From positions 1-40,938 of the forward strand of contig JAJEJD010000025.1 in the NCBI GenBank assembly GCA_022828125.1: a stretch of DNA of 40,938 bases, given 5' to 3'. This document shows, in pieces, positions 19,468 to 40,588 of the stretch. The notes under the pieces are model-generated. The model did no database searches and was not told the origin of the DNA. It saw nothing but the letters and a program-made list of their open reading frames with translations. Numbering within the stretch: position 1 is the first letter of the stretch; the number at the start of each line of letters is the position of its first letter. The stretch comes from a bacterium. Lineage in GTDB: Bacteria > UBA8248. The position numbers were made by a program, and so were the translations under genes.

Positions 19468-19613
19468 AAGCGGGAAATTTCCACCTGACGCATGGTTCCC
19501 CGCCATGACGATTTGTCGTTTTCGCCGGCCATATCGTGACAAAATGACAATTTGACCGAACGTATATATTTTTATCCTATTGAAAAATAAGGTGTTTTCA
19601 ATTTTCATGCAAA

Positions 19614-19629
19614 TGGCACAGCTATTGCA
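19614..19629 (+). promoter_or_regulatory. Sigma-54 promoter of structured RNA copy A
   Basis: TGGCAC-N5-TTGCA matches the RpoN consensus TGGCAC-N5-TTGC(A/T) completely, with GG and GC 12 nt apart. Transcription should start near 19640, 11 nt before the first RNA stem. No enhancer-binding protein gene is in the window. Confidence 0.75.
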
Positions 19630-19639
19630 TACTATAAGA

Positions 19640-19789
19640 GCAGGCTGATTGGGGCGTTCATAGGCGGCACGCCCCGGTTAGCCGGCGAGAGGAGTAGCTG
19701 ATTGGGTCGGCGCTCCTCCGCCACGCAATCATACATCTCGCATCTACCACCTGCGAGAGCCTCCTCCCGGATACGGGAGGAGGTTTTTT
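19640..19789 (+). ncRNA. Structured RNA, copy A (unassigned family)
   Basis: About 150 nt between a sigma-54 promoter and an intrinsic terminator, with no open frame. Predicted stems: GGGGCGT/ACGCCCC (19651-19657 with 19669-19675); a long hairpin 19684-19722 built from GGCG, GAGGAG and GCTGA paired with TCGGC, CTCCTC and CGCC around loop TTGGG; CTCGCA/TGCGAG (19737-19742 with 19752-19757) around a C-rich loop; then the terminator. A second copy at 25885-26035 is about 89% identical, and nearly all differences fall in loops or linkers. It may be a trans-acting small RNA; the C-rich loop and CUCCUC segments could pair with ribosome-binding sites. The distance to the next start codon (143 nt past the terminator) argues against a simple riboswitch. 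Confidence 0.7.
19760..19789 (+). terminator. Terminator of RNA copy A
   Basis: CCTCCTCCCG-GATA-CGGGAGGAGG followed by six T: a 10-bp perfect stem with a tetraloop. Confidence 0.92.
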
Positions 19790-19932
19790 ATTGGCCGGTT
19801 TTTATTCGGGCCAATTTCTTCCGGCGCGGTTTTCAAGCGGGCGATGTTGGGTTATGGTGCGGCCCAAGTGAAATCACTCGGCGTATATTCGATGTTGAAA
19901 ATTCATCCATTCAGTGATTAAGGAGTCGAACA

Positions 19933-20931
19933 ATGGCTACGGACAAGGTGCGCCTCGCCTCTATCGGGCTGGGCTGGTGGGGCGGCGTTCTGGTGGATGC
20001 CCTGAACCGGAGCGGTTCGGGCGAGGTGGTGACGGGTTTCGCGCGCAGCGAGGACGCCCGCAAGGCGTTCTCGGAGAAACACGGCTGCCGGACGGCGGGC
20101 AGCCTGGACGAGCTGTGGAACGACCCGGAGGTGGAGGGCGTCATCGTCGCGACGCCCCACTCCACGCATCTGGACATGATTTCTTCGGCCGCATCGGCCG
20201 GAAAACACGTGTTCGTCGAAAAACCGCTCACGCTGACCGTCGATGAGGCCAGAAAGGCGGTCGAGGCGGCCTCAAGCGCGAACGTCACCCTGCAAGTCGG
20301 CCATCACCGCCGCCGCTTCGGCGCGAACCGCAAGATGCGCGAGATGATCGATAATGACGAACTCGGCATGGTGCATCAGGTGGAGGCGAACCTCTCGCTG
20401 CCCATGGGTTTCGAATCCCGGCCGGGCTGGCGCAACGACCCCGCCGAATGCCCCGCTGGCTCCATGACGGGCTTGGGCGTCCACATGATCGACAACCTGC
20501 AGTACCTCGCCGGCCCCGCGAAGCGGGTGGCCGCGTTCAGCAAGAAGCTGCTCGGCAAGACGAACCTGGATGATGCGACGAGCATCATCATCGAATACGA
20601 GAGCGGCCCGCTCGGCCACATCGGCAGCTCTTTCGTGGTTCCCAAGATCTGCGACACGGCGGCCTTCGGCACGAAGATGCGCGCCTACAGCGAGGAAGAG
20701 GGCGGGAAGCTCTACGTGGCCAAGGTGGGCGAGGAGGCCCGCACCCCGGTCGAGGTCGTGGGCGGTGACGCCCTGGCGGATGAGATGGACGAGTTCTGCA
20801 AGTGCATCCGGGGCGAGGCGACGCCCGAAACCGGCGGGCCCGAGGGGCTCGAGGTCGTCGCCGTGCTCGAGGCGGTCGTCCAGAGCGCGACGACGGGCGA
20901 AGTGGTGGACGTGGCGGCCCTTCGCGGATAG
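19933..20931 (+). CDS. Gfo/Idh/MocA-family oxidoreductase
   Basis: 332 residues. The N-terminal Rossmann domain has GLGWWGGVLVDAL, VIVATPHSTH and the family signature EKPLTLTVDEA (Lys of EKP). The C-terminal alpha/beta domain has GHHRRRFGANRKM and GSMTGLGVHMIDNLQYLAG, where the His aligns with the usual catalytic His. Expected to be an NAD(P)-dependent dehydrogenase of a sugar, cyclitol or related polyol; substrate unknown. AAGGAGTCGAACA precedes the ATG. It is followed after 26 nt by a molybdenum hydroxylase subunit, probably in one operon. Confidence 0.92.
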   Translation: MATDKVRLASIGLGWWGGVLVDALNRSGSGEVVTGFARSEDARKAFSEKHGCRTAGSLDELWNDPEVEGVIVATPHSTHLDMISSAASAGKHVFVEKPLTLTVDEARKAVEAASSANVTLQVGHHRRRFGANRKMREMIDNDELGMVHQVEANLSLPMGFESRPGWRNDPAECPAGSMTGLGVHMIDNLQYLAGPAKRVAAFSKKLLGKTNLDDATSIIIEYESGPLGHIGSSFVVPKICDTAAFGTKMRAYSEEEGGKLYVAKVGEEARTPVEVVGGDALADEMDEFCKCIRGEATPETGGPEGLEVVAVLEAVVQSATTGEVVDVAALRG

Positions 20932-20957
20932 TTCTCGATGATTTTCAGGAGGAAACG

Positions 20958-23204
20958 ATGGCTCAGATGACGCACGTCGGCGCGTCGCCGACGAAAGAAG
21001 ACGCTCTCGCGAAAGCGGTCGGCGATACGGTCTACGGCGATGACTTCCACATGCCGGGCGAGATATACGGGAAAGCCGTCCGCGCCACGATGACGCCGGC
21101 GAGGATTGTGGAGATAGACGCGAGCGAGGCGCTCGCCCTTCCGGGCGTGCACTGCGTCCTGACGGCGAAGGACATTCCCGGCCTGAACGCGGGCCGCTAC
21201 CCCGATTACCCGGTGCTGGCCGAAGAGGTCGTGGTCGATATCGGCGATGCGGTCGCGCTCGTGGCTGCCGACACGCGGGAGTTGGCCGAAGAGGCGGCCT
21301 CGCTCGTGCGCGTCGCCTACGAGCCGCTGCCCGGCGCGTACGACTTCGCCGGCCTCGAAGATGGCGAGGTGGTCTGCGACTGGAAGACGGACAAGGGTGA
21401 CCTGGAGGCGGGCTTCGCCGAGGCGGACGTCGTCGTCGAGAACACCTATTTCTCCGCCTGTCTCGATCACGCCTTCATCGAGCCCGAGGGCGGCGTGGCC
21501 TGGGTGGACGAGCGCGGGGTGGTGAACATCCGCGTGCCCACGCAGATGATCGAGAACTACCAGAACGTCGCGCGGACGCTGGATCTTCCGCTCAGCCGCG
21601 TGCGGTATGACTGCCCGATGCTGGGCGGGGCCTTCGGGGGGAAGGAACACCCGCTGCTCGGCGCGTTCATGGCGCTTTTGTCGATCCGGACGGGACGCCC
21701 CGTGCGCATGGCCTACTCGCGCGAGGAGACCATGAACACCGGCAGCAAGAAGCACCCCTTCCTCATGAAGTACAAGACGGGCGCGACGAGGGATGGAAAG
21801 CTCACCGCCATAGAAGTCGACATCATCGGCGATGCGGGCGGCTACACGGCCAACAGCAAGGGGCTTCTCCTGGGTGCGCTCGTGGTGAGCGCGGGCCCCT
21901 ATGAGATACCCAACGCGCGGGGCCGCGCGCGCGCCGTCCGGACGAACAACCCCTTCACCGAGGCGATGCGCGGCGTGGGCGCGAACCAGGTGTGCTTCGC
22001 CTACGAGGCGCAGATGGATGAGCTCGCGTCGCGGCTGGGGATGGACCCGCTCGAGTTCCGCGAGAAGAACTTCATCGCCAAGGGCCAGACCCTCATCCAG
22101 AACCAGCCCGTGCCTACCCGCGTGATGCTGTCCGAACTGGCCGAGGAGACCAGGAAGCTCATCGGCCGCTCGGCGGGCCGCGTCCCCGAAAAAGACCACG
22201 GCCCCTGGCGCGTCGGCGTCGGGTACGTCGCGAACATCGGCGGATACGGGAGGCCGAGGAACGAGGGCGAGGTCTACGTGGGGGTTGATGAGGACGGCAG
22301 CGTGAGCGTGCGCACGGGCGCTTCGGACGTCGGCGCGGGCCAGACGCAGACGAACCGCCAGATCGCCGCGGAAGCCTTGGGAATAGCGCTCGAGGACGTG
22401 ACGGTGACGATGTCGGACTCACACGTCACCCCGCTCGTGGGCGTCACGGCAGGATCGCGCCAGACGATGATCTCGGGCGGCGCGTGCTACCGGGCGTCGG
22501 CGGAACTCAAGGACAGAATCCTGAAGGGCGCCGCCGAACTTCTCGAAGCGAACCCTGAGGACCTGGATATCCGCGAAAGCAGGGTGTACGTGAAGGCCGC
22601 AGAAGAGCGCGATGTCTCCTTTGCGGAAGCCGTGACGCAGTGCAGGAAGATGGGGGTCGACCTCCACGCCGTGGGCAAGACCAAGCTCGGCGTCCACGAA
22701 TACGAGGGCAACGAGCAATACGGCGACGCGGGCGGCTGGATGGACTACGTGTTCGGAATCCACGCGGCCGAAGTCGAGGTGAACGTCGACACGGGCGAAC
22801 TCCGCGTGCTCAACTACTGGTCGGGCCACGACGTGGGCCAGTCCATCAACTTACAGCACGTGGAAGGGCAGTTCGAGGGCGGCACGATGATGGGCGTCGG
22901 CCACGCCCTGACCGAAGAAGTCCTGACGCAAAAGGGCGCGCTCCTGAACAACGAGTTTCACGGCTACCTCATCCCCACCTCGGTGGATACGCCCGAGTGG
23001 GACAACGTGATACTGGAATCCGGCGAGGGCCTGGGCCCCTACGGGGCGAAGGGCATCGGCGAGCCTCCCTGCACGGCGGGCGCAGCGGCGGTGGCATGTG
23101 CGGCGGGCCAGGCGATAGGCGCGCGCCTCACGCGCATCCCCATCACGCCGGATCACGTCCTGGAAGTGCTCGGCCGCCTCAAGACGAACGGAAGCCAGGG
23201 CTAG
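20958..23204 (+). CDS. Molybdopterin-binding large subunit, xanthine dehydrogenase family
   Basis: 748 residues. An aldehyde oxidase/xanthine dehydrogenase a/b hammerhead domain (residues about 15-125) precedes the molybdenum-cofactor domain. Landmarks: GGAFGGKE near residue 225, AMRGVGANQ near 338, VTAGSRQTMISGG near 500, and GAKGIGEPP with the expected catalytic glutamate at about residue 702. Such subunits hydroxylate purines, aldehydes or N-heterocycles. Normally a 2Fe-2S and an FAD subunit are encoded next to it; none is in this operon, so partners must be elsewhere or electrons take another route. AGGAGG lies 7 nt before the ATG. The longer upstream frame is not used. Confidence 0.93.
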   Translation: MAQMTHVGASPTKEDALAKAVGDTVYGDDFHMPGEIYGKAVRATMTPARIVEIDASEALALPGVHCVLTAKDIPGLNAGRYPDYPVLAEEVVVDIGDAVALVAADTRELAEEAASLVRVAYEPLPGAYDFAGLEDGEVVCDWKTDKGDLEAGFAEADVVVENTYFSACLDHAFIEPEGGVAWVDERGVVNIRVPTQMIENYQNVARTLDLPLSRVRYDCPMLGGAFGGKEHPLLGAFMALLSIRTGRPVRMAYSREETMNTGSKKHPFLMKYKTGATRDGKLTAIEVDIIGDAGGYTANSKGLLLGALVVSAGPYEIPNARGRARAVRTNNPFTEAMRGVGANQVCFAYEAQMDELASRLGMDPLEFREKNFIAKGQTLIQNQPVPTRVMLSELAEETRKLIGRSAGRVPEKDHGPWRVGVGYVANIGGYGRPRNEGEVYVGVDEDGSVSVRTGASDVGAGQTQTNRQIAAEALGIALEDVTVTMSDSHVTPLVGVTAGSRQTMISGGACYRASAELKDRILKGAAELLEANPEDLDIRESRVYVKAAEERDVSFAEAVTQCRKMGVDLHAVGKTKLGVHEYEGNEQYGDAGGWMDYVFGIHAAEVEVNVDTGELRVLNYWSGHDVGQSINLQHVEGQFEGGTMMGVGHALTEEVLTQKGALLNNEFHGYLIPTSVDTPEWDNVILESGEGLGPYGAKGIGEPPCTAGAAAVACAAGQAIGARLTRIPITPDHVLEVLGRLKTNGSQG

Positions 23205-23238
23205 ACGAAAAGACGGAATACAGACTCTCCACACATGA

Positions 23239-23267
23239 AACGCCCCGCACGTGCTGCGGGGCGTTTT
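23239..23267 (+). terminator. Terminator of the oxidoreductase-Mo hydroxylase operon
   Basis: AACGCCCCGCA pairs with TGCGGGGCGTT around loop CGTGC, followed by a short T tract, 35 nt after the stop codon. Confidence 0.92.
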
Positions 23268-23680
23268 TGCGTCGACAGTTGGTGGGAATCCCGACCTTCG
23301 AGATTTCTTCGTAGGGACAGGCCCCCGTGCCTGTCCTGACAGGAAACAACTTGCCCCTACGATTATGGATTTCCAATAGGCCTGCATAGCAGATTACCGT
23401 CATCCCGGCTTTCGCCGGAATGACGAACAAAACCACACTGCCTCTTGTAGGGACAGGTCGCGACCTGTCCCTACGGTGAACGTTCCCGAAAGTTGGGCAG
23501 GGGTTTTTTCAACAAACCCCCATGGGGGAGTGATTCTCTTCGTCTTGGGTGGCTATAAGCCTCAAGGGGGGAGTGAATTCAAGCTCTCAAAAGACATCGC
23601 CCTATCATGGCGTAGTTCGGAATTCAAACGAATGGAACCTGCTAGAGGGCAGCGCTTCAGATTGAAATCCATTATCATCG
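23268..23680. repeat. Intergenic repeat cluster
   Basis: Contains a diverged 28-nt palindrome (GTAGGGACAGGCCCCCGTGCC..., from 23312), a REP-like palindrome CGTCATCCCGGC...GCCGGAATGACG (23398-23425), a perfect GTAGGGACAGGTCG/CGACCTGTCCCTAC palindrome (23447-23474), and a TTTTTTCAACAA run (23503-23514) like those at 16410 and 16740. The remaining 150 nt to the AlkD gene is lower in GC and shows no supported gene. Confidence 0.75.
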
Positions 23681-24361
23681 CTAAATTCGCACATGCTTGA
23701 GTGCTTCGCGCCGGCTTAGATCAGAGAGGTCAGAATGGGTTTCGACGAACTCCACCACCCAGTCCGGATCGGTCTTGGAGTACTCGCGCAACGCCCAGCC
23801 GATGCCCTTGCGCAGAAAGAACTCCGTCTCGCCGATGGCTGGTCGGATCACGTCTGCCAACAGCTTCGTGTCCGTCGCTCGCTTGGCCCGCAGTTGAGCG
23901 AGAATTGCAGTCCGCCGCTTCCAGATGTTGTCGTCCTTTGCCCACTCGCGTAGCAAAGCCTTTATCGGGTGAGGGTGGGCAGCGAGCATGGCGCCCATCC
24001 CTCGGGCGGCAATCGCGTCTACGTAATCCCACCACGCCCCAGTAACAATTAATTCCTCGATCATGGGAATTCTATCCGGTTCAAGCCAGCTGGAGTAGCG
24101 CTTGAAAAGCAGAAGCTCGACTGCCGCGTAGCGTTCCTCCCGATAGGCGGCCTTGCGCCATAGATCGAGAATTGCCGCCTCCCATGCGCACGCGTCGGGC
24201 AGCAGGTGCGTTTTGTACACGTCACTGGCGATACGCCGACACTGCGGTACGCCTACACCGAAGTAGGGCATATCGGACTTCATATATGCTTGTTGCTTAG
24301 GTGCTCTAACCGGGTCGGCAACTTTGCGCAAGGCGGCGATAACAGAATGTCGTATATCCAT
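23681..24361 (-). CDS. AlkD-like DNA alkylation repair glycosylase
   Basis: 226 residues of HEAT-like helical repeats. FGVGVPQCRRIASDVYK, LWRKAAYREERYAAVELL, TGAWWDYVDAIAARGMGAML (Trp and Asp expected at the active site), WKRRTAILAQL and FFLRKGIGWALREYSKTDPDWV follow the AlkD pattern. It would excise N3- and N7-alkylated purines without base flipping. GC content is visibly lower than in the neighbours and both flanks are AT-richer, so recent gain is possible. It is a lone gene; a TATAAAAT box lies about 30 nt upstream of the start. Confidence 0.88.
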   Translation of the reverse strand: MDIRHSVIAALRKVADPVRAPKQQAYMKSDMPYFGVGVPQCRRIASDVYKTHLLPDACAWEAAILDLWRKAAYREERYAAVELLLFKRYSSWLEPDRIPMIEELIVTGAWWDYVDAIAARGMGAMLAAHPHPIKALLREWAKDDNIWKRRTAILAQLRAKRATDTKLLADVIRPAIGETEFFLRKGIGWALREYSKTDPDWVVEFVETHSDLSDLSRREALKHVRI

Positions 24362-24659
24362 TGCCGGCTCGTGGTCAAGATTTTATATTGCGAACAGTGC
24401 GCGATAATCTCTCGAATGTAGCATATCTAATTCTCCAATACTCAGGCGAAGTCCATCTGGTCAACCCGCTCGTCCTTTCGACTTCCCCGCCGCAACCCGA
24501 AATTTCCACAGGTGGAACCCGGCTCCGTCATAACTCCAGATAGGCTGAAATAAAGAAATACGAGGAGCGGCTGCCGTACGAGAATGTACGGCAACACCGC
24601 TGTCCAGCGATATGGGAGAGATTGCGCCGCCGGGGTTGAGCGGTCAGGGAGGGAAAATC

Positions 24660-25823
24660 ATGTACATCAGACCTTTGAAAGGGAGCCCGGCCCGCCGGGA
24701 GCGGTCCGTATCGAGAATGTTCCGGGCGTATGGTGTCGCCGTTCTCCTCGTCTGCGCCGTGGCAATCGGGCTGCCCCCGCCTGCGTCCGCCGCCGTGGCG
24801 GGGAAGGACTATCGCCTGAGCGGCCCCTACACACAGAACAACCTGTCCATCTATCTGATTCACCGCGAAGGCCGAACAGACGGCCCCGCGCCGATCACCC
24901 TCGCCGAAGCGATGAGGCAGGGCCTCGTCCAAGTCGTCGAAACCGGCAGCGTCAGCCGCCTTAAGGTCCGCAACCTGGGTGATCGCGAGGTATTCATCCA
25001 GTCGGGAGACATCGTCAAGGGCGGCAAGCAGGACCGCGTCCTGCTCACCAGCCTCATCATCCCCCCGAAGTCGGGCTACATTCCCATCGGCGCCTTTTGC
25101 GTGGAGCAGGGCAGGTGGGCCAGGCGCGGCCTGGAGAATATATGGGCTTTTTCGATGTCCGCATACCGCATGCCTTCCAGGGCAGGCAAGATTGCGATGA
25201 TGAAAAGCATGGGCTACGAGGCCGCCCCCGAAGCCGGTCGACTCGAAAGGTTAAGGGAGAGATGGCCTGGTTTGAGAATATCGCAGGGGCCGCGGCGGCG
25301 CATGGGCTCAGATTATCAGGGGGATGTTTGGCGCTCGGTCGGGGCGATGCAGAAAGCTTTGGGCCGGGCCATGGGAGCGCGCGTCGCCGACGAACGCTCG
25401 CGTTCGAGCCTCCAGTTGTCATTGGAGAACAAGCGCCTCGCCTCGGTCCTCGTAGATTATGAGAAAGCCTTGGGTGGACTGTCGGCAAAGCATCCGGATG
25501 CCGTGGGCTATGTCTTCTCGGTAAACGGCAGGATCAACAGCGGCGATGAGTTCGAGAGCACCGGCCTGTTCCGCAAGCTGTGGTCGCGGCAGCTCAAGGC
25601 GGCGGCGACGGAGGCCATCGCGGAACAAAAGGCGCACGAGCGCAGGCAGCCGACGCTCGCCGAGGTCGCCGCGTTCATCGATTCCGCGCGCGCCGCGAAG
25701 CCCGCTTCGAGAGCGATGCCGGGCGGCTTGAACCTGGAGACGCGCCGGGCGAGCGGGTCGTACTACATGGAAGTGCGGCGCGGGAACGACCGCTGGGTGC
25801 ACAGGAACTTCGTCGCCCACTAA
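24660..25823 (+). CDS. Exported ARPP-1-like domain protein
   Basis: 387 residues. An N-terminal signal peptide (hydrophobic VAVLLVCAVAIGL, then PASA) leads into LSGPYTQNNLSIYLIH, ITLAEAMRQGLVQVVETGSVSRLKVRNLGDREVFIQSGDIVKGGKQDR, GYIPIGAFCVEQGRW, then QGDVWRSVGAMQKALG and AVGYVFSVNGRINSGDEFESTGLFRKLW. I recognise this order from ARPP-1 domain proteins, linked in some genomes to ADP-ribosylation systems; most are cytoplasmic, so export is notable. Start 24660 has GGGAGGG with good spacing; the earlier ATG at 24612 lacks one. In the 298 nt upstream I see no gene or clear promoter. Function unknown. Confidence 0.75.
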   Translation: MYIRPLKGSPARRERSVSRMFRAYGVAVLLVCAVAIGLPPPASAAVAGKDYRLSGPYTQNNLSIYLIHREGRTDGPAPITLAEAMRQGLVQVVETGSVSRLKVRNLGDREVFIQSGDIVKGGKQDRVLLTSLIIPPKSGYIPIGAFCVEQGRWARRGLENIWAFSMSAYRMPSRAGKIAMMKSMGYEAAPEAGRLERLRERWPGLRISQGPRRRMGSDYQGDVWRSVGAMQKALGRAMGARVADERSRSSLQLSLENKRLASVLVDYEKALGGLSAKHPDAVGYVFSVNGRINSGDEFESTGLFRKLWSRQLKAAATEAIAEQKAHERRQPTLAEVAAFIDSARAAKPASRAMPGGLNLETRRASGSYYMEVRRGNDRWVHRNFVAH

Positions 25824-25884
25824 ACCGGCGCCCGCATCACGCGCATCTTTTGCGCAACACGGCGCTTGTCTTGGATACAAGAAA

Positions 25885-26035
25885 TGCCGATCGGGGCGTT
25901 CTAAGGCGGCACGCCCCGACCGGCCGGCGCGAGGAGCGCTGATTGGGTCGGCGCTCCTCCGCCACGCAATCATCTGTCTCGCATCTACTCCCTGCGAGAG
26001 CCTCCTCCCGGAGACGGGAGGAGGTTTTTCTTTTT
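25885..26035 (+). ncRNA. Structured RNA, copy B (unassigned family)
   Basis: Second copy of the RNA at 19640-19789. Stems: GGGGCGT/ACGCCCC (25893-25899 with 25911-25917); long hairpin 25926-25963, here with an uninterrupted GAGGAGC-GCTGA stem around the same TTGGG loop; CTCGCA/TGCGAG (25978-25983 with 25993-25998); terminator. Compared with copy A, an unpaired TA becomes a C that pairs with the facing G, so the helix is extended. Upstream, CGGCGC-N5-TTGGA (25860-25875) looks like a decayed sigma-54 site in the equivalent place. The next gene (symporter, 26154) starts 119 nt after the terminator. Confidence 0.7.
26001..26035 (+). terminator. Terminator of RNA copy B
   Basis: CCTCCTCCCG-GAGA-CGGGAGGAGG then TTTTTCTTTTT. 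The stem is identical to copy A and the tetraloop differs by one base. Confidence 0.92.
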
Positions 26036-26153
26036 CATGAAGCGCTCCGCGATTCGGGGGGCGTTTCTGCGTCGGGGCGTAGGCCTGCCGTATCGCATCT
26101 TCTTGTCTTTCCCTGTAGGATACGCCCGAAGCCCGCCCAATGAGACATACGCT

Positions 26154-27983
26154 ATGCTCTCGACTCTGGACTGGTCGCTCATCCTCGGCTACGTCGCGTT
26201 CGCCTTGATCGTCGGTGTTCTCACCTCGCGCTCGGCGTCTAAGAGCCTGGCCTCGTACTTCGTTGCCGGGCGCAGCCTGCCCTGGTGGTGGATAGGCACC
26301 TCCATGGTGGCGACCACGTTCGCCTCGGACACCCCCCTCGTCGTGGCCGGCATCGTTGCAAAGCGCGGCATCTCGGGAAACTGGTTCTGGTGGGCGTGGG
26401 TCATCGGGAACGTGGGCGTCGCGGTCTTCTTCGCCCCGCTTTGGCGGCGCGCGGGCGTGGTGACCGACGCCGAGCTCATCGAACTGCGTTACGGGAGCGG
26501 CCCCGGCGCGTTCCTGCGCGGCTTCAAGGCCGTCTATTCCTCACTCATCGTGAACATCATCGTCCTGGGCTGGGTGTTCCGCGCCATGGCGAAGATAGCC
26601 GAGCCCTTCCTGCGGTGGGAGGAGATTCTGCCGCCGAACCTGTGGGCGGCCGTCGAGGCGAACTGGCCCGCCGTCCTCACGATGGGAAGCGTGAACGAGA
26701 GCGTAACGGTCGCTCTACTCGTCTTGATGATAGCGGCGTATGCGAGCGCGGGCGGGATCCGCGGCGTCATGCTCACCGATCTGTTCCAGTTCGTCATCGC
26801 AATGGCCGGAAGCTGCCTGTTCGCGTGGTACGCCGTCGAAGCCGTGGGCGGGCTCTCGGGCCTGAGCGCGAAGCTGGGCGAGGTATACGGCGCCGAGGGC
26901 GCGGCGGAGGTTCTCTCCTTCCTGCCGCCCGAGGGCGCGGGATGGGCGGGGGCGCAGGTGATCCTCATCTATCTGTTCGTGGTCTGGTGGGCGCACAACA
27001 ACGCCGACGGCGGGGGCTACATCGGCCAGAGGCTGTGCTCGGCGCGCACGCCGAGGGACGCCCAGGCGGGTGCTTTCCTCTTCACGATCGGGAACTACGT
27101 CCTGAGGCCCTGGCCGTGGATACTCATCGGCCTGGTGAGCCTGATCCTCGTGCCCAAGGGCATGGACGCGCTGCCCGGCACGATGGAGGCCAAGATTCTC
27201 GCCGACCGCGAGGCGGCCTATCCCCTTCTGATGGAGAAACTTCTGCCCGCGGGGGTTCTCGGCCTTGTGCTCGTGGGTCTTTTGGGTGCGTTCATGAGCA
27301 CGGTGGACACGCACCTGAACTGGGGGATGAGCTATCTGGTGAACGACGTGTATGCGCGTTTCATCAGAAAAGGAGCGGGCGCGCGGGAGGTCGTCTTCGT
27401 CAGCCGCCTGGGCGTGTTGATCATGGCGCTCGGCGCCTTCGCCGTCGCGGGGCAAATCAAAAGCATCGAGGTGGCGTGGAAGTTCCACATCTCGCTTGGT
27501 GCGGGGCTGGGCCTTCCGGTGATCCTGCGCTGGCTGTGGTGGCGCGCGAACGCCTGGACGGAAATCTCGGGAATGCTGGCCGCGGGCGCGACCGCCCTTT
27601 ATCTCCACTGGGATGGGGAGCCGCCCGCGTTTCCCGTATTGCTGGCCGCGGAGGTGGGCGTCGGTTTCGCGGCGATGCTGATAGTCACCTTCATCACGAA
27701 GCCCGCGAGGCCGGATGTTTTAAGGAACTTCTGGATAAGCGTGCGCCCGCCGGGCGCATGGGGGCGGGTGCGCGGGCCAGATGCGCGTTCGGCGCCCGTA
27801 TTCGCCCTCGCTGGTCTGTGGCTGGCTTTAAGCGTATTCGTCTTCGCGCTGATGTTCCTGGTCGGGGCGCTGCTCGTGGGCACCTGGACGCAGGCTGGCG
27901 GGCTCGCGCTCCTGGCGGGGTTCTCTCTCTGCACGGCGTGGTGGATCGACCGAAGGTATCGCTACGGGATTTTGTTCGTGTGA
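26154..27983 (+). CDS. Sodium:solute symporter family protein
   Basis: 609 residues, about 13-14 membrane segments, SSSF fold. Typical parts are SLASYFVAGRSLPWWWIGTSMVATTFASDTPLVVAG (helix 1-2 region with the sodium-site Thr/Ser), WHFWWAWVIGN-like WFWWAWVIGN, YASAGGIRGVMLTDLFQFVIAM, and GAFMSTVDTHLNWGMSYLVNDVY (helix 8 sodium site). The frame is open from 26037, but residues before MLSTLDWSLILGY are not hydrophobic or conserved. ATG 26154 lacks a strong Shine-Dalgarno. Solute unknown. Confidence 0.9.
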   Translation: MLSTLDWSLILGYVAFALIVGVLTSRSASKSLASYFVAGRSLPWWWIGTSMVATTFASDTPLVVAGIVAKRGISGNWFWWAWVIGNVGVAVFFAPLWRRAGVVTDAELIELRYGSGPGAFLRGFKAVYSSLIVNIIVLGWVFRAMAKIAEPFLRWEEILPPNLWAAVEANWPAVLTMGSVNESVTVALLVLMIAAYASAGGIRGVMLTDLFQFVIAMAGSCLFAWYAVEAVGGLSGLSAKLGEVYGAEGAAEVLSFLPPEGAGWAGAQVILIYLFVVWWAHNNADGGGYIGQRLCSARTPRDAQAGAFLFTIGNYVLRPWPWILIGLVSLILVPKGMDALPGTMEAKILADREAAYPLLMEKLLPAGVLGLVLVGLLGAFMSTVDTHLNWGMSYLVNDVYARFIRKGAGAREVVFVSRLGVLIMALGAFAVAGQIKSIEVAWKFHISLGAGLGLPVILRWLWWRANAWTEISGMLAAGATALYLHWDGEPPAFPVLLAAEVGVGFAAMLIVTFITKPARPDVLRNFWISVRPPGAWGRVRGPDARSAPVFALAGLWLALSVFVFALMFLVGALLVGTWTQAGGLALLAGFSLCTAWWIDRRYRYGILFV

Positions 27984-39883: not shown

Positions 39884-39959
39884 GCTGGCGTAGCTCAGCT
39901 GGTAGAGCAGCTGATTTGTAATCAGCAGGTCGGAGGTTCGAGTCCTCTCGCCAGCTCCA
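39884..39959 (+). tRNA. tRNA-Thr (TGT)
   Basis: Full cloverleaf: acceptor GCTGGCG/CGCCAGC, anticodon stem GCTGA/TCAGC around TTTGTAA (anticodon TGT), T-arm GGTTCGAGTCC, encoded CCA. First of four tRNAs upstream of tuf. Confidence 0.97.
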
Positions 39960-40123
39960 CGGCGGGACGCGCCTCCCGGACCCCGCGCCAGGATATCCGG
40001 CTGGAGGCGCCCCCGTTCCCCCCGTTCGGGCTTTGGCGAATGTCGCGGCTTCGGGGGCCGATGGTTCCCGCGAGGTATTTTTGATAGCTTTTATGATTGT
40101 TTTTTGATGAACGGCGGTTTTCA

Positions 40124-40208
40124 GGGGAGGTTCCCGAGTGGCCAAAGGGATCAGACTGTAAATCTGACGGCTCAGCCTTCGGAGGTTCGAATCCTCCCCT
40201 CCCCACCA
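40124..40208 (+). tRNA. tRNA-Tyr (GTA)
   Basis: 85 nt with the long variable arm of bacterial tRNA-Tyr (class II). Acceptor GGGGAGG/CCTCCCC, anticodon loop CTGTAAA (GTA), GGTTCGAATCC T-arm, encoded CCA. Confidence 0.97.
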
Positions 40209-40256
40209 GCAGATAGATAGTCGGGACGCTTGAAGACGGGCGCTTTGGATTCAGAG

Positions 40257-40332
40257 GCGGGAATAGCTCAGATGGTAGAGCATCAGCCTTCCAAGCTGAG
40301 GGTCGCGGGTTCGAGCCCCGTTTCCCGCTCCA
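40257..40332 (+). tRNA. tRNA-Gly (TCC)
   Basis: Acceptor GCGGGAA/TTCCCGC, anticodon stem TCAGC/GCTGA around CTTCCAA (TCC), GGTTCGAGCCC T-arm, encoded CCA. Confidence 0.97.
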
Positions 40333-40512
40333 GGATGATTCGGGGCTTTCGCCTTTTCTTGATATGAGTTTCATTCGTGTGGATTTTGGCTTCCGGGGTT
40401 GCTCTGGACGGCATAAGTTGTATTATCCGCCCGGAGCGAATACCGGGGTTCATCGTTCGCCGAGGTTGCTCCGGCTGAAACAAATGATGTTCGCATGCCC
40501 GGCACGCAGCAG

Positions 40513-40588
40513 GCCCACGTAGCTCAGCCGGCAGAGCACTTCCTTGGTAAGGAAGAGGTCACCGGTTCAAGTCCGGTCGTGGGCTCCA
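40513..40588 (+). tRNA. tRNA-Thr (GGT)
   Basis: Acceptor GCCCACG/CGTGGGC, anticodon stem CTTCC/GGAAG around TTGGTAA (GGT), GGTTCAAGTCC T-arm, encoded CCA. The Thr-Tyr-Gly-Thr-tuf order equals that of thrU-tyrU-glyT-thrT-tufB in E. coli. Confidence 0.97.

Follow-up and report, generated by a model that had tools for sequence, protein, structure and literature searches.

The window analysed here, a 40,938-nt stretch of contig JAJEJD010000025.1, contains two similar segments of about 150 nt that lie some 6 kb apart on the same strand, raising the question of whether they are leaders of the genes that follow them, debris of a mobile element or genes for a small RNA (sRNA) and, if the last, how such an RNA would be switched on and what it would act upon. 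The first-pass annotation had read them as a paralogous small-RNA pair under selection for RNA structure, an interpretation that gained support from covariation, from the absence of an Rfam match and from synteny. We consider it likely, judging from sequence comparisons, that the segments represent a new RNA family: an RpoN-dependent, stand-alone sRNA acting in trans, of which the second copy is a duplicate that probably depends on read-through from ARPP-1. The features on which this reading is built are listed in Table 1.

Table 1. Features of the two RNA loci and their surroundings (positions are those of the window)
Feature	Position	Strand	Description
Enhancer-like site 1 (TGACGATTTGTCG)	19506..19518	+	96 % mean identity in genus, between variable spacers
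Enhancer-like site 2 (TGACAAAATGACA, conservation continuing to CAATTTGACC)	19537..19557	+	94 % identity within genus
Sigma-54 (-24/-12) promoter TGGCAC-N5-TTGCA (TGGCACAGCTATTGCAT)	19614..19629	+	Kept at all A-type loci
Copy A of small RNA	19640..19789	+	About 150 nt; covariance model match 107 bits
Stem-loop 1	19643..19683	+	Covarying helix with nearly invariant loop AGGCGGCA; 10/17 pairs changed on both sides
Stem-loop 2	19684..19722	+	GGCG/GAGGAG helix, GAUNGG loop; near-invariant sequence; 8/17 pairs unvarying in 19 sequences
Single-stranded conserved linker (ACGCAATCAT...)	19723..19735	+	Alignment across members
Stem-loop 3 (TCTCGCA/TGCGAGA)	19736..19758	+	Restricted to the window's genus
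Intrinsic terminator	19759..19789	+	Predicted fold; stem sequence swapped between genera, hairpin with T run always there
Promoter-like block of downstream gene (GTTTTCAAG...TTGGGTTATGGT)	19829..19860	+	90 % genus identity, after a spacer of 62 % identity
Gfo/Idh/MocA oxidoreductase	19933..20931	+	Pfam; adjoins the A-type RNA in all RNA-bearing genera
Sigma-54 promoter remnant before copy B (AACACGGCGCTTGT versus GGCACGGCTCTTGC)	25856..25869	+	-24 GG lost
Copy B of small RNA	25885..26029	+	Recent duplicate, about 6 kb downstream of copy A
Terminator-like hairpin native to the ARPP-1 gene	26039..26068	+	Separates copy B from the symporter; similar in relatives without copy B

Structure and distribution of the RNA

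BLAST analysis recovered both copies where they had been reported (88 % identity, E value 9.6e-47, match 25886–26029) and no further copy in the 3.9-Mb genome. The pair had been described as differing at some 15 positions, almost all in loops or linkers, a description that did not survive a count on the alignment: about 19 positions differ and about 8 of these fall inside helices, where most of the changes still pair (U-A to C-G, U-G to C-G and G-U to G-C) and two break pairing. An unpaired TA was also said to be replaced by a C opposite G; the C-G pair is indeed found in copy B, but the two bases of copy A are not both unpaired, as they form a U-G pair and a bulged A in the predicted fold. 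Similarly, copies A and B agree completely in the loop TTGGG, the linker and the terminator stem, which is not so across the phylum: there the loop usually reads UNGG, the linker is variable and different genera have different terminator stems.

Both copies fold into the four stem-loops previously described, the 3′ one being followed by a T run, with folding energies of -89.3 (copy A) and -93.1 kcal/mol (copy B) and z scores of -7.9 and -8.1, respectively; 0/200 shuffled sequences folded as well. A consensus terminator scan missed the copy A terminator, which is visible in the predicted fold. The earlier statement that there is no open frame stands: a mini-ORF starting at a UUG behind GAGGAG in copy A was considered and rejected, as its start is not kept in relatives, several of which have UCG or UAG instead.

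Covariation was assessed by taking the structure from copy A alone and applying it to 19 sequences aligned with MAFFT without structural information. Pairing is retained in 91.6 % of the alignment cells and 13 pairs are changed on both sides, with 44 double-changed cells observed versus 13.9 ± 3.8 in shuffles (0/500); in a control in which the partner was slid by one to three columns, pairing fell to 36–51 %. Rather than breaking the stems, the homologues thus keep them and show compensatory changes. Helix 1 covaries freely, while hairpin 2 and the loop of stem-loop 1 are nearly invariant, suggesting a constraint on their sequence beyond pairing. The 3′ part of the RNA is unconserved beyond the window's genus; on this alignment the conserved core comprises the two predicted 5′ hairpins and the linker, and the four-stem plan is the version found in this genus. 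These data are those of a non-coding, structured RNA with a conserved, covarying secondary structure and a predicted terminator of its own.

BLAST identified homologues in each of the seven genomes that represent the genus and, within the same family, in further genera. A covariance model (R1), built from the first 98 aligned nucleotides of 15 of the BLAST-found sequences, allowed the search of related genomes that the first-pass annotation had called for and found the RNA in 16 of the 18 genomes sampled from the phylum, here one family with six genera; outside the phylum, with stricter filters than inside it, it found the RNA in 0/194 genomes. Among the sampled genomes, the family as recognised by this model is confined to a single bacterial phylum. 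Of the two genomes lacking a match, one, G015, has a completeness of 67 %, and a contig end truncates its best match to the syntenic gene. The other, G009 (L268), is a 2.2-Mb family member with 35 % GC at the sampled locus; it carries a gene closely homologous to the downstream one, with no RNA before it, and its rpoN is present but more divergent. A scan of the genome contigs with a 14-base pattern was discarded, as the pattern was too short, returning at least 119 chance matches with homology only over short stretches.

Promoter region of copy A

The -24/-12 element upstream of copy A has the C of its -12 element at 19628, giving a predicted +1 at 19640, the base at which the RNA begins, and an element of the same kind precedes every A-type locus as well as a second copy of the RNA present in G011. 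The putative promoter is thereby positioned at the right distance from the predicted 5′ end of the RNA, as in a sigma-54-dependent sRNA. A sigma-54 promoter of this kind is of the stress or nutrient type.

Further upstream are two palindromic, enhancer-like sites of the form TGNCR-N3-TGNCR, the palindrome of site 2 spanning 19537–19549. The same form occurs upstream in most loci, at times displaced or with one mismatch, site 1 being displaced or imperfect at some loci of other genera. Within the genus, the sites, the promoter, the RNA and the promoter-like block downstream stand out as a footprint of 85–96 % identity against spacers of 56–71 %. A combined pattern (TGACANNNTGNCA, N40–68, GGYAY-N5-TTGC) is found once per genome in 11/18 genomes, always at the RNA, and its reversed control returned 0 matches. 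Taken by itself, the strict sigma-54 pattern does not exceed background in the genus (4 versus 5 control matches in the window's genome, G000), and looser sigma-54 promoters may exist elsewhere in the genome.

A single rpoN gene is present in the window's genome, and rpoN was found in 16/18 genomes of the phylum. Six matches to PF00158 were obtained in the genome, two of which are true activators by match length and score: a GAF-AAA+-HTH protein and a protein of the response-regulator type that adjoins a PAS histidine kinase. Candidate enhancer sites approximately 70–150 bp upstream are therefore accompanied in this genome by rpoN and by putative activator genes. A second clean sigma-54 promoter (TGGCACGGATTTTGCT) was detected at G000:C17:71830–71845 (L225:4831–4846, minus strand), with the GAF-type activator a few kb away. 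A short ORF and a universal-stress-like gene follow this promoter, and its vicinity showed no TGNCR-N3-TGNCR site.

We propose that one of the two enhancer-binding activators would bind both palindromic sites and drive sigma-54 RNA polymerase at the -24/-12 promoter, yielding a transcript that would start at approximately 19640 and end at the intrinsic terminator at approximately 19789. The predicted product would carry the two core hairpins, the near-invariant loop of stem-loop 1 and the linker, both exposed, and the terminator, such that a signal sensed by the activator would be converted into a burst of trans-acting regulatory RNA. Since the enhancer-plus-promoter unit is unique to the RNA in the genome, one might go further and suppose that what has been retained from genus to genus as the output of sigma-54 is the RNA and not a metabolic operon, with signalling running mainly via a structured RNA. 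With no Hfq detected, the RNA would then work with some other RNA-binding protein or without a chaperone. We think this broader proposal rather unlikely to hold.

Copy B and the ARPP-1 gene

In the R1 search of the phylum genomes, copy B was recovered from two genomes only, G000 and the closely related G003. It begins approximately 60 nt past the ARPP-1 stop codon, and in both genomes it is inserted between this stop codon and the terminator-like hairpin of the ARPP-1 gene; in G001, G002, G005 and G006, the gap between ARPP-1 and the symporter contains a similar terminator-like hairpin and no RNA. The surroundings of the two copies had been called unrelated, which is correct for the flanks overall but overlooks the promoter remnant before copy B, in which the -24 GG is replaced by AA in G000 and CG in G003. 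Homology of copy B to the A locus begins near the promoter, so that the enhancer-like sites were not carried over, and none was found at copy B. Comparison of the loci indicates that copy A is ancestral and phylum-wide and that copy B is a recent duplicate. The latter would have retained the RNA without the enhancers and the -24 element, and is probably expressed by read-through from ARPP-1, adding to a common RNA pool. On this reading, it is a clear case of an sRNA gene that was duplicated into a 3′ UTR and left its original regulatory elements behind.

Alternatively, copy B may be a decaying pseudogene and not an active paralogue, which would be compatible with the account given for copy A. 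The loss of the -24 GG and of both enhancer-like sites points in this direction, as does an A-C mismatch in helix 1 of each of the two B copies (G000 and G003); however, copy B has been retained in two species with four hairpins and a terminator intact, and its folding energy is very low. The intact hairpins slightly favour read-through over decay, and we regard decay as possible, if somewhat doubtful.

The ATG of the long symporter ORF (26037) falls at the terminator-like hairpin of ARPP-1, and conservation in relatives suggests that the true start of the symporter is near the ATG at 26154.

Known RNAs, mode of action and neighbouring genes

Searching the window against Rfam 15 at gathering score returned tRNAs only; the RNA was without a match at this score, and scans of both loci at E values up to 10 yielded nothing convincing. 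Weak matches (anti-hemB, nse_sRNA, Scr6106 and others) were far under the gathering score and were rejected. That to anti-hemB (RF02837) reached 24–28 bits over the 3′ hairpins and terminator, far below the gathering score of 49.5, and misses the conserved core, the resemblance being one of terminators only. The tRNA genes of the window include a four-gene cluster (Thr, Tyr, Gly, Thr) at 39884–40588.

Several characterised systems are reminiscent of the RNA described here: GlmY/GlmZ, paralogous structured sRNAs of enterobacteria with sigma-54 promoters (PMC3844500, PMC7073468); the Vibrio Qrr RNAs, sRNAs under the control of sigma-54 and enhancer-binding proteins (PMC10162802); and Pseudomonas CrcZ/CrcY, which are sigma-54-dependent, form their own transcription units and show conserved synteny (PMC8871633). 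With the first, the RNA shares a paralogous structured pair and a sigma-54 promoter (here at copy A); with the second, putative sigma-54 control with enhancer-like sites; and with the third, a sigma-54-type promoter, its own predicted unit and conserved synteny. The Rfam models of GlmY/GlmZ and Qrr were not among its matches even at the relaxed E value; the QseF consensus TGTCN10GACA is found upstream of 1/19 loci and is unconserved, copy B has lost its sigma-54 promoter, and a LuxO-type site is absent. Qrr RNAs act with Hfq, whereas Hfq (PF17209) was detected in 0/18 genomes of this phylum, in which controls were detected. CrcZ is longer than this RNA and carries A-rich Hfq/Crc motifs, which are absent here, and the RNA is not located beside its putative activator genes. 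Site patterns for QseF, LuxO or NtrC were not conserved upstream of the RNA loci, and searching for the NorR consensus yielded no usable result. The RNA thus appears to be a new family that belongs to none of GlmY/GlmZ, Qrr or CrcZ, although sigma-54-driven sRNAs as such are already known. As a family it is well supported, with a promoter type that can be recognised, ends that can be predicted, its own covariance model and a well-delimited phylogenetic range, and it comes from a phylum that has been poorly sampled.

As to how the RNA would act in trans, the only extended complements (12–13 nt) of loop 1 and the linker in G000 were those at the RNA genes, and the complement searches revealed no conserved target for either; any mRNA pairing would therefore have to use a short seed. 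Given trans action, we find pairing of mRNAs with the loop or linker through a short seed an evenly balanced prospect. Opposed to mRNA pairing, and likewise a sub-case of the sRNA reading, is a GlmY- or CrcZ-like decoy in which hairpin 2 and loop 1 would sequester an RNA-binding protein. Consistent with this are the conserved sequence of the paired strands of hairpin 2, while helix 1 covaries freely, the failure to detect Hfq in the 18 genomes, the absence of extended mRNA complements and the precedent of the sigma-54 sRNAs GlmY and CrcZ, which act by protein titration (PMC7073468, PMC8871633). However, most members have no A-N-GGA (CsrA-type) motif and there is no A-rich Crc/Hfq motif, and we judge titration unlikely overall, if slightly less so once trans action is granted. 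In a phylum in which Hfq was not detected, the RNA provides a concrete starting point for the study of RNA-based regulation that does not involve Hfq.

The position of the RNA also has to be considered. In all genera that have the RNA, copy A is located between an unannotated upstream gene and the Gfo/Idh/MocA gene, a constant synteny that would also fit a cis role, i.e. a terminator-type riboswitch or attenuator in the leader of the downstream gene (the oxidoreductase for copy A, the sodium/solute symporter for copy B); the intrinsic terminator at the end of the RNA and the location of copy B upstream of the symporter agree with such a role. However, a conserved promoter-like block, resembled by eye by a block in other genera, lies between the terminator and the oxidoreductase, and the two together would isolate the RNA from this gene. 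Copy B is likewise parted from the symporter by the terminator-like hairpin of ARPP-1. The second copy in G011 (L184:9398–9549) is at another locus, with its own sigma-54 promoter and a convergent gene downstream, indicating that the RNA unit exists without a downstream gene to control. Furthermore, the gene persists in G009 although the RNA is missing, terminator stems are not the same from genus to genus, and a conserved antiterminator was not seen. We therefore rejected the cis reading as improbable; the oxidoreductase's own block and the second G011 copy favour a stand-alone RNA gene over a leader, and the latter argues for action in trans.

Finally, two near copies within 6 kb, together with duplicates at different sites in two lineages, might suggest a repeat associated with terminators or what is left of a small mobile element, but this is contradicted by the copy number (at most two per genome), the synteny of the ancestral copy and the compensatory evolution of the stems, and is very improbable. 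The RNA gene appears to have been duplicated at least twice in the phylum, once giving rise to copy B and once, independently, to the second copy of G011.
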